From Streptococcaceae bacterium (GTDB taxonomy: Bacteria > Bacillota > Bacilli > Lactobacillales > Streptococcaceae): a stretch of 33,626 nucleotides of DNA. A model generated the notes under the pieces. It was given only the letters and a program-made list of their open reading frames with translations. It made no database searches and was not told where the DNA came from. Both the position numbers and the translations under genes were made by a program. The stretch covers positions 1 to 33,626 of the forward strand of contig JAIRWF010000031.1 in assembly GCA_031253335.1 (NCBI GenBank), written 5' to 3'. Numbering within the stretch: the first letter of the stretch is position 1; every line of letters starts with the position of its first letter. Below, piece after piece: positions 10,055 to 32,985 of the stretch.

Positions 10055-11565
10055 TAAGCTTGTCCTCCTTTGGGATTAAAGATGGTCTCTGAAACGGCTT
10101 TGCGGTCGATTTTTCCATTTTGGTTGAGCGGGAAATCAGCGACATAGACAAACTTTGTAGGCATCATGTAGTCCATAATGAGAGGCGCAAGACTTTCTTT
10201 GAGCTGTTTTGTAAAGTCGCGGTCAGAGAGAGTCGAATCATGCGGGGCTACCAGGACGGCGACAAGAGCTGTGACTTTATGCTCTGCGTTTTCTTGAGGG
10301 ACGACGAGGGCTTTCTCAACAGTGGGAAGGCTTGTGAGGTTGGCCTCAATGTCTTGAAGCTCAATGCGAAAACCATTGAACTTGACTTGAAAGTCGATTC
10401 GCCCGTTATAGTTTAAAACGCCATCGGAATCAAAGAAGCCTGCGTCGCCCGTATGATAAGCAGGCTTTCCGTCTCGTATGAAGAAAGCTTCTGCCGTTTT
10501 TTCGGAATTTTCAAAGTAGCCAGTTGCGACGGAATCCCCTGTAATGATGATTTCTCGATCAAGAATTTCTAATGTCACACCGGGCTTTGCGCGACCGATG
10601 GGGACACGATCGTAGTGATTTAAGAGCTCAGGGGTAACTTCAATGCTTGAAATCGCACCCGTTGCCTCGGTTGGCCCATAGGTGTTATAGACTGTCGCGT
10701 TGGGAAAGGCTTTAAGAAGTTTTTCTGCGGTTTTATGCGTCAGCTCTTCCCCACAGAAGATAAATTGGCGAAGTTCAGGATGCTCGTCCTGCGTGAAACT
10801 AGGATCTAAGAGACAAATATCCACGAATGAAGGCGTCGAAATCCAGGTGTTGATGATGGTGCTATTGAGCCGCTCAAAGAGGAGTTTGAAATTTGTAGTT
10901 TCCTCACGGCTCAAAGAGACCAAGGTACCTGCTGTGGTGAGACTTGGATAAATAGAAAAGATAGACAAATCAAAGCTATAAAGCGGTTGCTCCAGAAATT
11001 GATTCTTGTCAAATTTGACAAAGGCTGTATTCATCCAATTTGTGAAGGTCGCAAGATTGTCATGGCTTACAGCAACCCCTTTGGGGACGCCCGTTGTGCC
11101 TGATGTATAGATAATATAAGTTGTGTCTTTGCCAGATACAGCAGCTCTTGTGTCGATGGTACGTCCATCAAAATCAGCACGTCTGTCAAAGTTGACAGCC
11201 ACAACCTGCGGGTTGGCTGCAAACAAGGATTGATAAGACTCGTCCAACTCCGTTGTGAGCATTATCGCCGAAGGTTTTGCCGCGCCCAAAATCATCTCCG
11301 TGCGCTCAATCGGCGTGTGACTATCCACCGGAATATAGGCCCGCCCTGTCAAATTTGACGCAAGCATTGCCGCAAGGCTCAAAAAGTCATTCTTACCAAA
11401 GATTAAGACTGGCCTTTTGTTCACTTCAAGCCCTGTCAAATCTGACGCGAAACTATCCATCGCATCTAGTAAGTCCTGATAGCTGTAGCTGGCCTCTTTT
11501 TCTGCCACAGCAACACTTGTCAAATTTGACAAAGCATTCTCAAGTATGGTGTCTAATAGTTTCAT
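10054..11565 (-). CDS. dltA: D-alanine:D-alanyl carrier protein ligase DltA
   Basis: A 503-residue cytosolic adenylating enzyme that activates D-Ala and loads it onto DltC. The P-loop is YIIYTSGTTGVPKG (about 150-163); later come NTYGPTEATGAIS (A5), YHTGDAGF (A7) and the C-terminal lysine in LNQNGKIDRKAV. ATG 11565 (MKLLDT) has AGGAA at 6 nt; the ATG at 11571 is too close to that RBS. The first 560 bp carry five copies of the 14-bp palindrome, read as SNLT, VKFD, VNFD or SDLT depending on the frame. Family length is normal, so these copies replace rather than lengthen the sequence. Confidence 0.97.
   Translation of the reverse strand: MKLLDTILENALSNLTSVAVAEKEASYSYQDLLDAMDSFASDLTGLEVNKRPVLIFGKNDFLSLAAMLASNLTGRAYIPVDSHTPIERTEMILGAAKPSAIMLTTELDESYQSLFAANPQVVAVNFDRRADFDGRTIDTRAAVSGKDTTYIIYTSGTTGVPKGVAVSHDNLATFTNWMNTAFVKFDKNQFLEQPLYSFDLSIFSIYPSLTTAGTLVSLSREETTNFKLLFERLNSTIINTWISTPSFVDICLLDPSFTQDEHPELRQFIFCGEELTHKTAEKLLKAFPNATVYNTYGPTEATGAISSIEVTPELLNHYDRVPIGRAKPGVTLEILDREIIITGDSVATGYFENSEKTAEAFFIRDGKPAYHTGDAGFFDSDGVLNYNGRIDFQVKFNGFRIELQDIEANLTSLPTVEKALVVPQENAEHKVTALVAVLVAPHDSTLSDRDFTKQLKESLAPLIMDYMMPTKFVYVADFPLNQNGKIDRKAVSETIFNPKGGQA
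11007..11531. repeat. Cluster of five 14-bp palindromes inside dltA
   Basis: Copies at 11007-11020 and 11518-11531 (perfect TGTCAAATTTGACA), 11184-11197 (centre AAGT), 11347-11360 (last A to G) and 11434-11447 (TGTCAAATCTGACG). They are encoded in different reading frames of dltA, so conservation is at the DNA and not the protein level. Confidence 0.85.
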
Positions 11566-18736: not shown

Positions 18737-18823
18737 TGTCAAATTTGACAACTTAGTCCAAATCCGTGAAGCGATAAGGCAAAAGCTCTCCAAGCGTCAT
18801 CGTCTTAGCTGTCAAATCTGACG
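18737..18823. repeat. 14-bp palindromes at the end of cdd
   Basis: TGTCAAATTTGACA at 18737-18750 directly after the cdd stop, and TGTCAAATCTGACG at 18810-18823 inside cdd, where it reads SSDLT. Confidence 0.85.
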
Positions 18824-19142: not shown

Positions 19143-19797
19143 TTGCTGTCACGCCTTCCATAATCGCAACCCCCGCCGAGCAGCCAAGTCGCGACGCACC
19201 CGCTGCAATCATGGCTTCTGCTTCCTCACGGTTATGAATCCCGCCCGAGGCTTTCACGCCCATGTCAGGACCAACGGTTTCCCGCATAAGTTTGACGTCT
19301 TCGACCGTCGCACCACCCGTTGAAAAGCCAGTCGAGGTCTTGACAAAGTCTGCGCCGACTTCTTTCGCGATTTGACAGGCTTTGACCTTCTCGTCATCTG
19401 TTAAAAGGCAGGTCTCAATGATGACTTTCAAGATCTTGTCAGATTTGACAGCATTGACTGCTGCAATATCCGATTTGACAAGATCCCAGTTGCCTGATTT
19501 CACAGCGCCGACGTTTATAACCATGTCAATCTCATCAGCACCCGCTGCAATCGCAGATTGCGCTTCAACCGCTTTTACCGCTGATGTATTGGCGCCTAGA
19601 GGAAAGCCAATGACGGTACAAGTTGCAACACCTGAGCCTGCTAATTCTTTTGCGGTCAGTTCCACCCAAGTGGGGTTGATACAGACACTCGCAAAGTGGT
19701 ATTTTTTCGCTTCGTCAATAATTTTCTTCACTGCCGTTTCATTGGCTTCAGGTTTTAAAATGGTGTGGTCAATGTATGTGTTAATAGCTTCAGTCAT
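19129..19797 (-). CDS. deoC: Deoxyribose-phosphate aldolase
   Basis: A 222-residue class I aldolase cleaving 2-deoxyribose 5-phosphate to glyceraldehyde 3-phosphate and acetaldehyde. The conserved Asp is in [14 protein letters not shown], the Schiff-base Lys in [13 protein letters not shown], and a second Lys in [16 protein letters not shown] precedes ATG 19797. It carries palindrome copies at 19437-19450 (reads VKSD) and a degraded one at 19467-19480. Confidence 0.97.
19437..19480. repeat. 14-bp palindrome and a degraded copy inside deoC
   Basis: TGTCAGATTTGACA at 19437-19450, and TATCCGATTTGACA at 19467-19480, exactly 30 bp (10 codons) apart and in the same frame, both reading VKSD in the protein. 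Confidence 0.75.
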
Positions 19798-25718: not shown

Positions 25719-25732
25719 TGTCAAATTTGACA
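25719..25732. repeat. 14-bp palindrome between rsmC-like gene and pdp
   Basis: TGTCAAATTTGACA; with flanks the perfect palindrome extends to 20 bp (25717-25736). It lies between the methyltransferase stop and the pdp RBS and could form a hairpin in the intercistronic mRNA. Confidence 0.9.
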
Positions 25733-25737
25733 AGTCC

Positions 25738-26415
25738 TTATCCTTTTTTCACACTTCTTAAAATCCAATAACCCTTATCTTGCTTGACTTTTTCGACATT
25801 GCCAAAGACTTCTTCCAGTTTTTTGACGGCAGACGGTGCGCCTTGCTTTTTTTGAATCACGACCCAGAGGCTCCCGCCAGGCGTCAGGTGCTCAAAACTT
25901 TCTGACAAAATCCGGTGCACCACTTCTTTTCCCGCACGAATGGGCGGATTCGTCACGACGTCAGAAAATTTCTGCTCTGTTAGCGCTGACAAGCCGTCAG
26001 ACATCAGAAATTCAGCAGTTGTCAAATTTGACAGACTATCAGAAATCTCGTCAAGCCTTTGCAAACTTTCTGACAAGCCGCTAGAAGTTATCGTCAGATT
26101 TGACAAGGCATTTTTCTGCGCCAAATCCAGTGCTCGTGGGTTGACATCCACCCCTGTCAAGGACAGCCCATAGCTTTTGGCAAGCGCAATTCCAATGACG
26201 CCATAGCCGCAACCCACATCGAGCAATGTCCCTTCGCCGACTGAGGGCTCAAAAGTCTCAATCAGGAGGCGACTCCCGAAATCCACACCCGACTTGCTGA
26301 AGACCCCATTATCCGTCCAAAAGCGAAAATCCTCTCCCAGCAAGCGCACGCGCAATTCCTTCGGGTCGCTTGCCAAGTCGCGATTGTCCTCAAAATACAT
26401 ATTGGTCTCAGCCAT
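25738..26415 (-). CDS. RsmC-like class I SAM-dependent methyltransferase with a 24-codon insertion
   Basis: A 225-residue protein with the SAM motif LLDVGCGYGVIGI (about 64-76), acidic loop GVDVNPRAL and the catalytic motif TNPPIRAGK (about 155-163), as in single-domain RsmC-like N2-guanine methyltransferases. Such proteins usually have about 200 residues. The excess lies at about 104-128, between two LSNLT segments encoded by palindrome copies 72 bp apart. ATG 26415 (MAETNMYF) has TGCTACAAT 7 nt upstream. First gene of the pdp transcript. Confidence 0.88.
   Translation of the reverse strand: MAETNMYFEDNRDLASDPKELRVRLLGEDFRFWTDNGVFSKSGVDFGSRLLIETFEPSVGEGTLLDVGCGYGVIGIALAKSYGLSLTGVDVNPRALDLAQKNALSNLTITSSGLSESLQRLDEISDSLSNLTTAEFLMSDGLSALTEQKFSDVVTNPPIRAGKEVVHRILSESFEHLTPGGSLWVVIQKKQGAPSAVKKLEEVFGNVEKVKQDKGYWILRSVKKG
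26020..26105. repeat. Two palindromes bracketing extra codons in the methyltransferase gene
   Basis: TGTCAAATTTGACA at 26020-26033 and CGTCAGATTTGACA at 26092-26105. They are 72 bp (24 codons) apart and in the same frame, each reading LSNLT. Several partial motifs (TTCTGACAA) lie between and around them. Confidence 0.85.
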
Positions 26416-26554: not shown

Positions 26555-26580
26555 AGAGAGAGAGAGAGAGAGAGAGAGAG
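26555..26580 (+). repeat. (AG)13 dinucleotide tract
   Basis: Thirteen uninterrupted AG units, located right after two possible start codons. Slipped-strand changes of one unit would alter the reading frame into the signal-peptide-like sequence. Confidence 0.97.
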
Positions 26581-26663: not shown

Positions 26664-26707
26664 TGTCAAATCTGACAGGTCTTCCAAACCCCTTGTCAAA
26701 TCTGACA
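26664..26707. repeat. Two 14-bp palindromes in the surface-protein-like ORF
   Basis: TGTCAAATCTGACA at 26664-26677 and again at 26694-26707, 30 bp apart and in frame, giving PLSNLTGLPN followed by PLSNLTAQSL. Confidence 0.9.
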
Positions 26708-27907: not shown

Positions 27908-29434
27908 ATGGACGAAATCATCGTTTTAGACTATGGCAGCCAGTACAACCAGCTCATCGCCCGCCGCATCCGCGAAATCGGCGTTTTTTCGGAGCTGAAA
28001 TCTCACAAAATCACAGCCGACGAAATGAAGACGCTAGCACCCACAGGCATCATTCTCTCAGGCGGGCCAAACTCTGTCTATGACGACAATAGCTTTGACA
28101 TTGACCCCGAGATTTTTGAGCTGGGGATTCCGATTTTAGGGATTTGCTACGGCATGCAACTCATGACCTATAAATTAGGCGGCACTGTCGAAGCCTCGAC
28201 CGAGCGTGAATACGGTCAAGCGCCCCTTCATTTTGAAACGGAATCTGCCCTTTTTGCAGGGACACCTGATGGGCAAAAAGTCCTGATGTCGCACGGTGAC
28301 AAAGTCACGAGCTTAGCCCCAGGCTTTGAGGTCACAGGCACTTCGCCAAATAGTCCTTATGCCGCGGTGCAAAACGTCGCACGCCAGCTTTACGGCATCC
28401 AATTCCACCCCGAAGTCCGTCATTCTGAGCACGGCTATGACATTCTTCGCAACTTTGCGCTGAACATCTGCGGAGCAGGAGGCGACTGGTCCATGGCGAA
28501 TTTCATTGACCAGCAAGTCGCACAAATCCGCGAAAAAGTCGACAATAAAAAAGTTCTTTTAGGTCTTTCTGGTGGTGTCGATTCTAGCGTGGTGGGTGTG
28601 TTGCTTCACAAAGCGATTGGCGATCAACTCACCAGCATTTTCGTGGATCATGGTTTTTTGCGAAAAGGCGAAGCCCGTCAAGTCATGGAGACCCTCGGCG
28701 GCAAATTTGGCCTCAACATCATCAAGGTGGATGCCTCAAAACGCTTCTGGGACAAGCTTGAAGGCCTCTCCGATCCCGAGACGAAGCGCAAAATCATCGG
28801 CAACGAGTTTGTCTATGTTTTTGACGATGAAGCGAGAAAGCTTGACGGCATCGAATTTCTCGCGCAGGGCACCCTCTACACCGACGTCATCGAGTCAGGG
28901 ACCGACACCGCGGCAACAATCAAGTCCCACCACAATGTCGGTGGCCTTCCCGAAGATATGTCCTTCCAACTCATTGAGCCGCTCAACACGCTCTTTAAAG
29001 ATGAAGTCCGGGCGCTAGGCACGCAGCTCGGCATGCCCGATGAAATCGTCTGGCGCCAGCCTTTCCCAGGCCCAGGCCTTGCCATTCGCGTCTTGGGCGA
29101 CTTGACCCAAGAAAAACTCGAGACCGTGCGTGAGTCGGATGCCATTCTCCGTGAAGAAATCGCGAAAGCTGGGCTCGAACGTGATGTCTGGCAATATTTC
29201 ACGGTGAACACCGACGTGCGCTCCGTTGGCGTCATGGGCGACGGCCGCACTTATGATTATACGATTGCGATTCGTGCGATTACCTCAATTGACGGGATGA
29301 CCGCTGATTTCGCGAAACTCCCCTGGGAAGTCCTGCAGAAAATCTCCAACCGCATCGTCAACGAAGTCCCGCACGTCAACCGCATTGTCTATGACGTGAC
29401 GCCTAAGCCACCTGCGACGGTCGAGTGGCAATAA
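27908..29434 (+). CDS. guaA: GMP synthase (glutamine-hydrolysing)
   Basis: A 508-residue enzyme making GMP from XMP, ATP and glutamine. The class I glutamine amidotransferase domain has GGPNSVYDD, the nucleophile in GICYGMQL (Cys about 80) and [12 protein letters not shown]; the ATP-pyrophosphatase loop is [13 protein letters not shown]; the C-terminus KPPATVEWQ is canonical. AGGA lies 10 nt upstream. The last 58 bp are repeated at 29554-29611. Confidence 0.97.
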
Positions 29435-29459
29435 TGCGTGTTCTCTAACTTTGGCGGTA

Positions 29460-29556
29460 TGTCCCGACTCGCTAAGATGGCTAAAGCCATCAGTCTCGCG
29501 GGCATCAAGCTGTCCCGACTTGCTAAGATGGCTAAAGCCATTAGTCTCGCGGGCAA
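29460..29556 (+). repeat. Two tandem 51-bp hairpin units after guaA
   Basis: Units begin at 29460 and 29511. Each has TGTCCCGACTYGCTAAGATG followed by GCTAAAGCCATYAGTCTCGC and GGGCA. GATGGC pairs with GCCATC, flanked by GACT/AGTC and CCCG/CGGG, so each unit can fold as an imperfect hairpin of about 40 nt. Confidence 0.85.
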
Positions 29557-29611
29557 CCGCATTGTGTATGACGTGACGCCTAAGCCACCTGCTACTGTCG
29601 AGTGGCAATAA
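29554..29611 (+). repeat. Duplicated guaA 3' end (attachment-site-like)
   Basis: 58 bp repeat the end of guaA (29377-29434) with three mismatches, all silent third-position changes (GTC/GTG, GCG/GCT, ACG/ACT). The peptide ending KPPATVEWQ and the stop are preserved. The 3' end of guaA is a known integration site for genomic islands, which carry their own guaA end. Confidence 0.85.
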
Positions 29612-29615
29612 CCAC

Positions 29616-32780: not shown

Positions 32781-32920
32781 TTGTCAGATTTGACAGAGGA
32801 TTGAAATGCATCTAAGAGTCTTGTCAGATTTGATAGGTTGTTAAAATGTAGTTTGAGAGTACTTGTCAAATTTGACAGAGAGTTGAAATGCATCTGAGAG
32901 TCTTGTCAAATCTGATAACA
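32781..32920. repeat. Tandem array of palindrome-containing 40-42-bp units upstream of racE-rdgB
   Basis: Four palindromes at 32782, 32822, 32864 and 32904 (TGTCAGATTTGACA, TGTCAGATTTGATA, TGTCAAATTTGACA, TGTCAAATCTGATA). The intervening stretches are also related (GAAATGCATCTAAGAGTC and GAAATGCATCTGAGAGTC). A fifth copy at 32966 lies in the yneF terminator. Confidence 0.9.
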
Positions 32921-32952: not shown

Positions 32953-32985
32953 AAAAAACAAGCCTCGTCAAATTTGACAGCTTAT
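32953..32985 (-). terminator. yneF terminator built on the palindrome
   Basis: On the minus strand AAGC, the palindrome TGTCAAATTTGACG, then AGGCTTG and six T. The palindrome forms the upper stem and AAGC/GCTT the base. Confidence 0.7.

Follow-up and report, generated by a model that had tools for sequence, protein, structure and literature searches.

The methyltransferase gene analysed here encodes a stretch of extra residues between two palindromes, which raises the question of whether the palindromes lengthened the protein or serve some other purpose. The window, i.e., the whole stretch of 33,626 nucleotides to which all positions below refer, contains the gene as an ORF of 225 residues (Table 1). 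Its product matches the Pfam domain MTS (PF05175, E 6.7e-43) and the structure of MJ0882 (1dus, E 1.9e-39). The NPP motif expected of an MTS-domain methyltransferase is present at residues 156-158 and is invariant in all 19 rows of our alignment.

The methyltransferase and its extra segment

Among 98 relatives, 93 gave a match to the methyltransferase, and 29 homologues were extracted (loci L017-L045), all four congeners included. The initial annotation had described the protein as longer than its family (225 versus about 200 residues), and this is borne out: 28 of the 29 homologues comprise 194-205 residues and the remaining one, with 220, carries its surplus ahead of the aligned region. None of the 29, the four congeners among them, has a counterpart of the insert, and the relatives without the palindromes are also without the extra residues. 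The segment preserves the reading frame, is confined to this lineage and has a palindrome on either side, as had been proposed. It does lie between two LSNLT palindromes 72 bp apart; its length, given earlier as 24 codons, is 23 residues in the alignment. The insert begins inside one LSNLT and finishes inside the other, so that the added copy cannot be told from the original one.

The alignment with 1dus stops at query residue 106 and picks up again at residue 137, behind the VDVN motif. From the general fold of class I methyltransferases, we take this region to be a surface loop leading from a helix to a strand. In the 19-row alignment, the length of the loop differs by 1-2 residues between homologues. 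A single-sequence structure model of the protein reached a mean pLDDT of only 39 and was discarded. For the core of the insert, no other copy and no recognisable parent was found in the genome, the best match being one 14-base word within the same gene. Copying from elsewhere in the genome was ruled out, since the matches consist of parts of the palindrome and short words only.

Two features of the neighbourhood are recorded here in their own right. A perfect (AG)13 run at 26555-26580, some 140 bp upstream of where the methyltransferase gene begins, may be a phase-variable tract or an assembly artefact. At the end of guaA, the last ~35 bp including the stop codon recur ~178 bp downstream (29400-29612) as a partial tail duplication, and the 16-bp palindrome GATGGCTAAAGCCATC occurs twice between the guaA tail and its repeat.

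Table 1. Positions of the methyltransferase gene, its insert and the palindromic sites in the window.
Feature	Position	Strand	Basis
RsmC/MJ0882-like methyltransferase gene, 225 aa	25738..26415	-	ORF translation, Pfam MTS and 1dus matches
Lineage-specific in-frame insert, 69 bp = 23 codons, residues 107-129	26029..26097	-	19-row alignment; missing from 29/29 homologues
Palindromic site TGTCAAATTTGACA, perfect, read LSNLT	26020..26033		pattern scan
Palindromic site CGTCAGATTTGACA, one mismatch, read LSNLT	26092..26105		pattern scan
Half-site-like CTGACAAG in insert; distances of its TGACA to the palindromes' TGACA: 30 bp (2.9 turns) and 42 bp (4.0 turns)	26070..26077	+	read from the sequence, tentative
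Half-site-like CGTCAAG in insert; its GTCA 29 and 43 bp from the palindromes' GTCA	26049..26055	+	read from the sequence, tentative
Palindromic site past the methyltransferase stop, before the likely start of the nucleoside phosphorylase gene	25719..25732		pattern scan and ORFs
Palindromic site, 30 bp (2.9 turns) to the next	26664..26677		pattern scan
Palindromic site	26694..26707		pattern scan
Five palindromic sites in one 505-aa ORF (starts 11007, 11184, 11347, 11434, 11518)	11007..11531		pattern scan
Pair of palindromic sites at a spacing of 73 bp (7.0 turns)	18737..18823		pattern scan
Palindromic site	19437..19450		pattern scan
Intergenic 40-bp tandem repeat, 3.3 copies, sites at 32782, 32822, 32864, 32904 (spacings 40, 42, 40)	32781..32915
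Palindromic site, 62 bp (5.9 turns) past the last site of the tandem array	32966..32979

Abundance, species specificity and helical spacing of the palindromes

The consensus of the palindrome in the window's genome (G000) is YTGTCARATYTGACAR, with the core TGTC-N6-GACA. The window alone has 20 matches with up to two mismatches, against 0.55 expected, and none of 100 shuffles reached 20. Across the 1.66 Mb of the genome, which is 82% complete, the word TGTCARATYTGACA occurs in 302 exact copies and the reversed control pattern in none. Such a great excess that includes genes (177 of 238 sites lie in ORFs) is one feature of a high-copy palindrome of the HIP kind. The site analyses used a sample of 712 kb, i.e., the window and 40 further stretches; with no more than one mismatch allowed it contains 238 sites, of which 148 are exact. 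Conservation runs 1-2 bases past each edge of the 14-mer and then ends.

The word is specific to this genome. It is found 0, 2, 3, and 3 times in the four congeners, and the next highest count in a family search of 335 genomes was 27. Foreign DNA as its source was ruled out, as the site-bearing stretches are of native composition, and a phage origin of the paired word was rejected after a search that returned 0 viral contigs with a close pair.

A second species, Lactococcus genome G030, carries a different palindrome, TTGACARNNYTGTCAA, in 537 exact copies. This word occurs 95 times in G102, 0-10 times in the other 16 of the 18 genomes searched, and once in the window's genome. It consists of the same half-site, CTGTCAAA, as the palindrome of the window, in reversed order. 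Neither word is in excess in the samples of genomes G001 and G019. Both palindrome types also occur close together in G030, e.g., at L257 12070 and L273 5879, and pairs of the palindrome types with centres exactly 9 bp apart and a half-site in common were seen there five times.

The sites of the window's genome are strongly clustered, with 96 of 204 neighbouring spacings below 200 bp against 13 expected. That these spacings are multiples of ~10.4 bp was first noticed in 399 kb, and 314 kb of other contigs were then fetched as a held-out test; the first version of the phasing test covered spacings up to 150 bp. The discovery stretches gave R=0.585 (n=58) with a best period of 10.40 bp and the held-out stretches R=0.621 (n=38) with a best period of 10.50 bp. 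Phasing as strong as observed was reached by 0 of 20,000 jittered controls in either set, and when the period was left free between 5 and 20 bp, by 0 of 1,000 controls in either set. Phasing is present in each class taken separately, with R 0.55 for the 62 coding pairs and R 0.61 for the 26 intergenic ones. For pairs within the same gene (60 pairs in 44 genes), only 1 of 20,000 controls with frame-keeping jitter reached the observed value. The phasing fades past ~250-350 bp. Within 150 bp of the palindromes, TGTCA and TGACA are ~1.8-1.9 times as frequent as expected, whereas the control word TTGCA is not enriched.

The palindromes of G030 are spaced in the same way. In 400 kb with 110 sites (at most one mismatch), a period of 10.45 bp gave R 0.48 and one of 10.3 bp gave R 0.58. 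Inclusion of eight further spacings gave R 0.54 (n=38, p 1.6e-5), and these eight alone, which are the only held-out part in a sample smaller than that of G000, gave R 0.77 (p 8e-3). Pairs 29, 39, and 43 bp apart in the Lactococcus genome G099, which has few copies (C1 112667/112710; C49 99208/99237/99815/99854), suggest that this spacing pattern may exist there in a less pronounced form.

The linkers between close palindromes are unrelated except in the tandem array at 32781-32915, which rules out a longer shared repeat as the cause of the regular spacing outside that array. Whole-turn spacing with unrelated linkers, inside as well as outside genes, points to a binder in contact with a number of sites along one side, and it is the arrangement expected for phased sites of a cooperative binder. 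RNA hairpins, codon usage, and transposition do not predict it. We therefore consider it probable that the palindromes form a genome-wide, species-specific set of sites for a putative dimeric DNA-binding protein that acts cooperatively on one face of the helix. The opposite order of the half-sites in the two species speaks against this reading in its simplest form, since one ordinary dimer would not explain both. A literature search found neither the motif strings nor a title that matched helical phasing with palindromes, and to our knowledge helical phasing of such highly repeated words has not been described. The genome-wide scale and the phasing go beyond what the initial annotation had noted.

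Sites written over codons and their placement in the genome

To compare sites with their counterparts in a relative, 678 crude ORFs of G000 were matched to 664 ORFs of the congener G001, both from the sampled stretches only, which yielded 171 reciprocal best pairs with at least 35% identity. Of the 75 sites in the paired ORFs, 71 fall within the part covered by the alignment. As 65 of these 71 lie away from any insertion of at least four residues, the palindromes have mostly been written over existing codons. In G030, 24 of 25 alignable sites are likewise away from insertions. Identity to G001 was 38.5% for the residues of the sites, 48.7% for their flanks, and 57.1% for whole genes (70 sites), which shows that the sites lie in permissive stretches and that the word itself is more altered than its flanks.

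The palindrome had initially been taken for an inserted element that expands proteins, as in Rickettsia. Rickettsia palindromic elements are inserted, measure ~100 bp or more, and have an extended element sequence common to their copies. Like the palindromes described here, they are read through in frame within proteins. A mobile palindromic element of this type, or of the REP/MITE type, that lengthens proteins by in-frame insertion would account for an insert that occurs in this genome alone and has palindromes at both ends, and 6 of the 71 sites (8.5%) are indeed near insertions of at least four residues, compared to 2.0% of random positions in the same genes. The great majority of sites contradicts it, however, with just these 6 of 71 and, in the second species, 1 of 25 coinciding with insertions. 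Furthermore, no extended element is shared, as conservation stops ~2 bp beyond the 14-mer and nothing is conserved beyond ~18 bp, and insertion does not predict helical phasing. Rickettsia-type insertion was thus rejected as the general mechanism, and a mobile element, already largely refuted by these data, is very improbable. The excess of 6 of 71 over 2% may reflect some link between sites and indels, but it is small and stems from five genes, and a shared preference for permissive stretches would suffice to explain it.

Among the 71 alignable sites, a long insert that spans two palindromes was found only in the methyltransferase, and this insert is probably a rare by-product and not the rule. 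Expansion of proteins by slippage or recombination between copies, which had also been suggested, is not supported as a general mechanism. It remains plausible locally, because the 40-bp tandem array in the same window provides a precedent for local tandem duplication. The insert could instead be unrelated to the palindromes: an indel may have occurred by chance in a variable loop, and two sites may have come to lie there by coincidence. We regard this as a serious possibility, if not a likely one: the loop varies by one or two residues among the homologues and the sites favour variable stretches, yet both ends of the 23-codon insert lie inside palindromes. In addition, two half-site-like words in the insert appear to stand near whole-turn spacing (Table 1), although these are small numbers. 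At about an even chance, we prefer local duplication within a phased cluster, followed by divergence, to an unrelated indel as the origin of the insert.

Based on crude ORF calls, 177 of the 238 sites are coding, 60 are intergenic, and 1 is at an edge, compared to 89% coding and ~11% intergenic DNA. The coding count is an upper bound, given that at least the sites at 26664 and 26694 lie in a probably spurious ORF. Intergenic sites are nearer to stop than to start codons. By eye, some of them resemble terminator stems, and RNA roles may thus add to the pattern. For example, the intergenic palindromes at L059 18266 and L067 11741 have complementary bases on either side together with a T run, the arrangement of rho-independent terminators. 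ORFs with a homologue carry 0.35 sites per kb and those without carry 0.21, in homologue samples that are incomplete; the most conserved quarter has the lowest density, 0.11. Whole stretches of 12-20 kb have no site (L069, L185, L193, and L194), whereas others have 7 per 10 kb.

Could the sites simply serve as operators for a transcription factor that controls a large regulon? They are palindromic, their intergenic share of 60 in 238 is well above that of the DNA, and related half-sites are reported to stand upstream of L. lactis genes (PMC3547956, partial text). Most sites lie inside genes, though, at all positions within the crudely called ORFs, and those between genes sit closer to stops than to starts. 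Phased site pairs are typical of looping repressors, and the pairs described here fit that arrangement. Nevertheless, the genes adjacent to the sites are mixed housekeeping genes among which we saw by eye no shared pathway, and operators of this kind are quite an unlikely explanation.

The same placement is compatible with a DNA-uptake-like sequence, i.e., a palindromic word that is recognised by a cooperatively acting receptor or competence protein and spread by transformation-driven biased conversion (molecular drive). Sites of this kind would be overwritten and not inserted, differ as words between two species, be commoner in ORFs with homologues and in locally less conserved stretches, and crowd behind stop codons, all of which was found here. 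Against this stands a unit that is a palindrome and not a single oriented word. The clustering with helical phasing has no known counterpart in the DNA uptake sequences (DUS), and we know of no uptake specificity in lactococci. Overall, we consider an uptake sequence unlikely, if somewhat less so than operators.

Comparison with known systems and a possible mechanism

The DUS of Neisseria are enriched in the core genome, lie in permissive regions, and often form inverted repeats in terminators; like the palindromes here, they are core-enriched and number hundreds of copies at permissive positions, partly in terminators (PMC2397512, partial text). In contrast to them, the unit described here is itself a palindrome and is clustered at whole-turn spacing. 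Neisseria DUS are also said to occur in species dialects.

HIP1 of cyanobacteria resembles the present palindromes in being a short palindrome of very high copy number that is replaced by another palindrome in some relatives. It is, however, a GC-rich 8-mer tied to DNA methyltransferases (PMC4390886, partial text), whereas the words here measure 14-18 bp, are AT-centred, and are helically phased. The ComR-box of streptococci has a GACA-N4-TGTC core, which is shared by the palindrome of G030. The palindrome of the window, TGTC-N6-GACA, has the opposite order and hundreds of sites in place of the few of ComR (PMC5131891, partial text), and so does not qualify as a ComR/Rgg-box. In BusR operators, too, a pair of half-sites containing GAC lies on one face of the DNA, but BusR needs one fixed spacing of 22 bp, while the spacings here span many whole-turn multiples (PMC8517857, partial text). 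BusR was ruled out as the binder, as its fixed spacing does not fit.

A search for the binding protein yielded no candidate. Rgg-like genes number 10 in G000, 9 in G030, and 18 in G102, compared to 0-13 in 14 other genomes, so that the site-rich genomes are not set apart. ParB-like genes are not expanded in the site-rich genomes either, with ParB_N lacking a match in the 82% complete G000. An expansion of Rgg-like or ParB-like genes was therefore discarded as a marker of the binder, given that the gene counts do not differ. Three Rgg-like regulator genes lie within 7.3 kb at L194 1376-8601 (G000 contig C31), in a stretch without palindromes.

The mechanism that we propose takes the palindromes as sites of a cooperative binder. 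A putative dimer would bind each palindrome and cooperate with its neighbours on the same helix face. Selection or a biased process would create sites by base substitution, changing amino acids where needed; new sites would fall where genes, mostly of the core, tolerate them or directly after the end of a gene, and would build up in clusters at whole-turn spacings. The insert of the methyltransferase would then be a rare indel in a tolerant loop, most likely formed by local duplication or slippage inside a phased cluster, and it could have been retained because it keeps the sites in phase (72 bp correspond to 6.9 turns) and leaves the fold unharmed. The putative binder might help to organise the chromosome, regulate genes broadly, or bias DNA uptake towards certain sequences.

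A bolder version, for which we claim somewhat less than an even chance, is that some lactococci maintain a genome-wide lattice of palindromes, with species-specific words of one half-site that are substituted in at whole turns even at the cost of amino acids. A new chromosome-organising or DNA-uptake protein, with its geometry flipped between species, would be responsible, and the lattice might occasionally add DNA and so lengthen a protein.

Highly repeated short words have been described before, although how they arise and what they do is largely unexplained. The spacing by whole turns seen within protein-coding genes offers a direct physical clue, namely that a protein in contact with several sites along one side reads the words at the DNA level. 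The findings suggest that pressure at the DNA level can override protein sequence at many places, and with two related species that use different words of one half-site, the system can be tested by comparison and simple binding assays.
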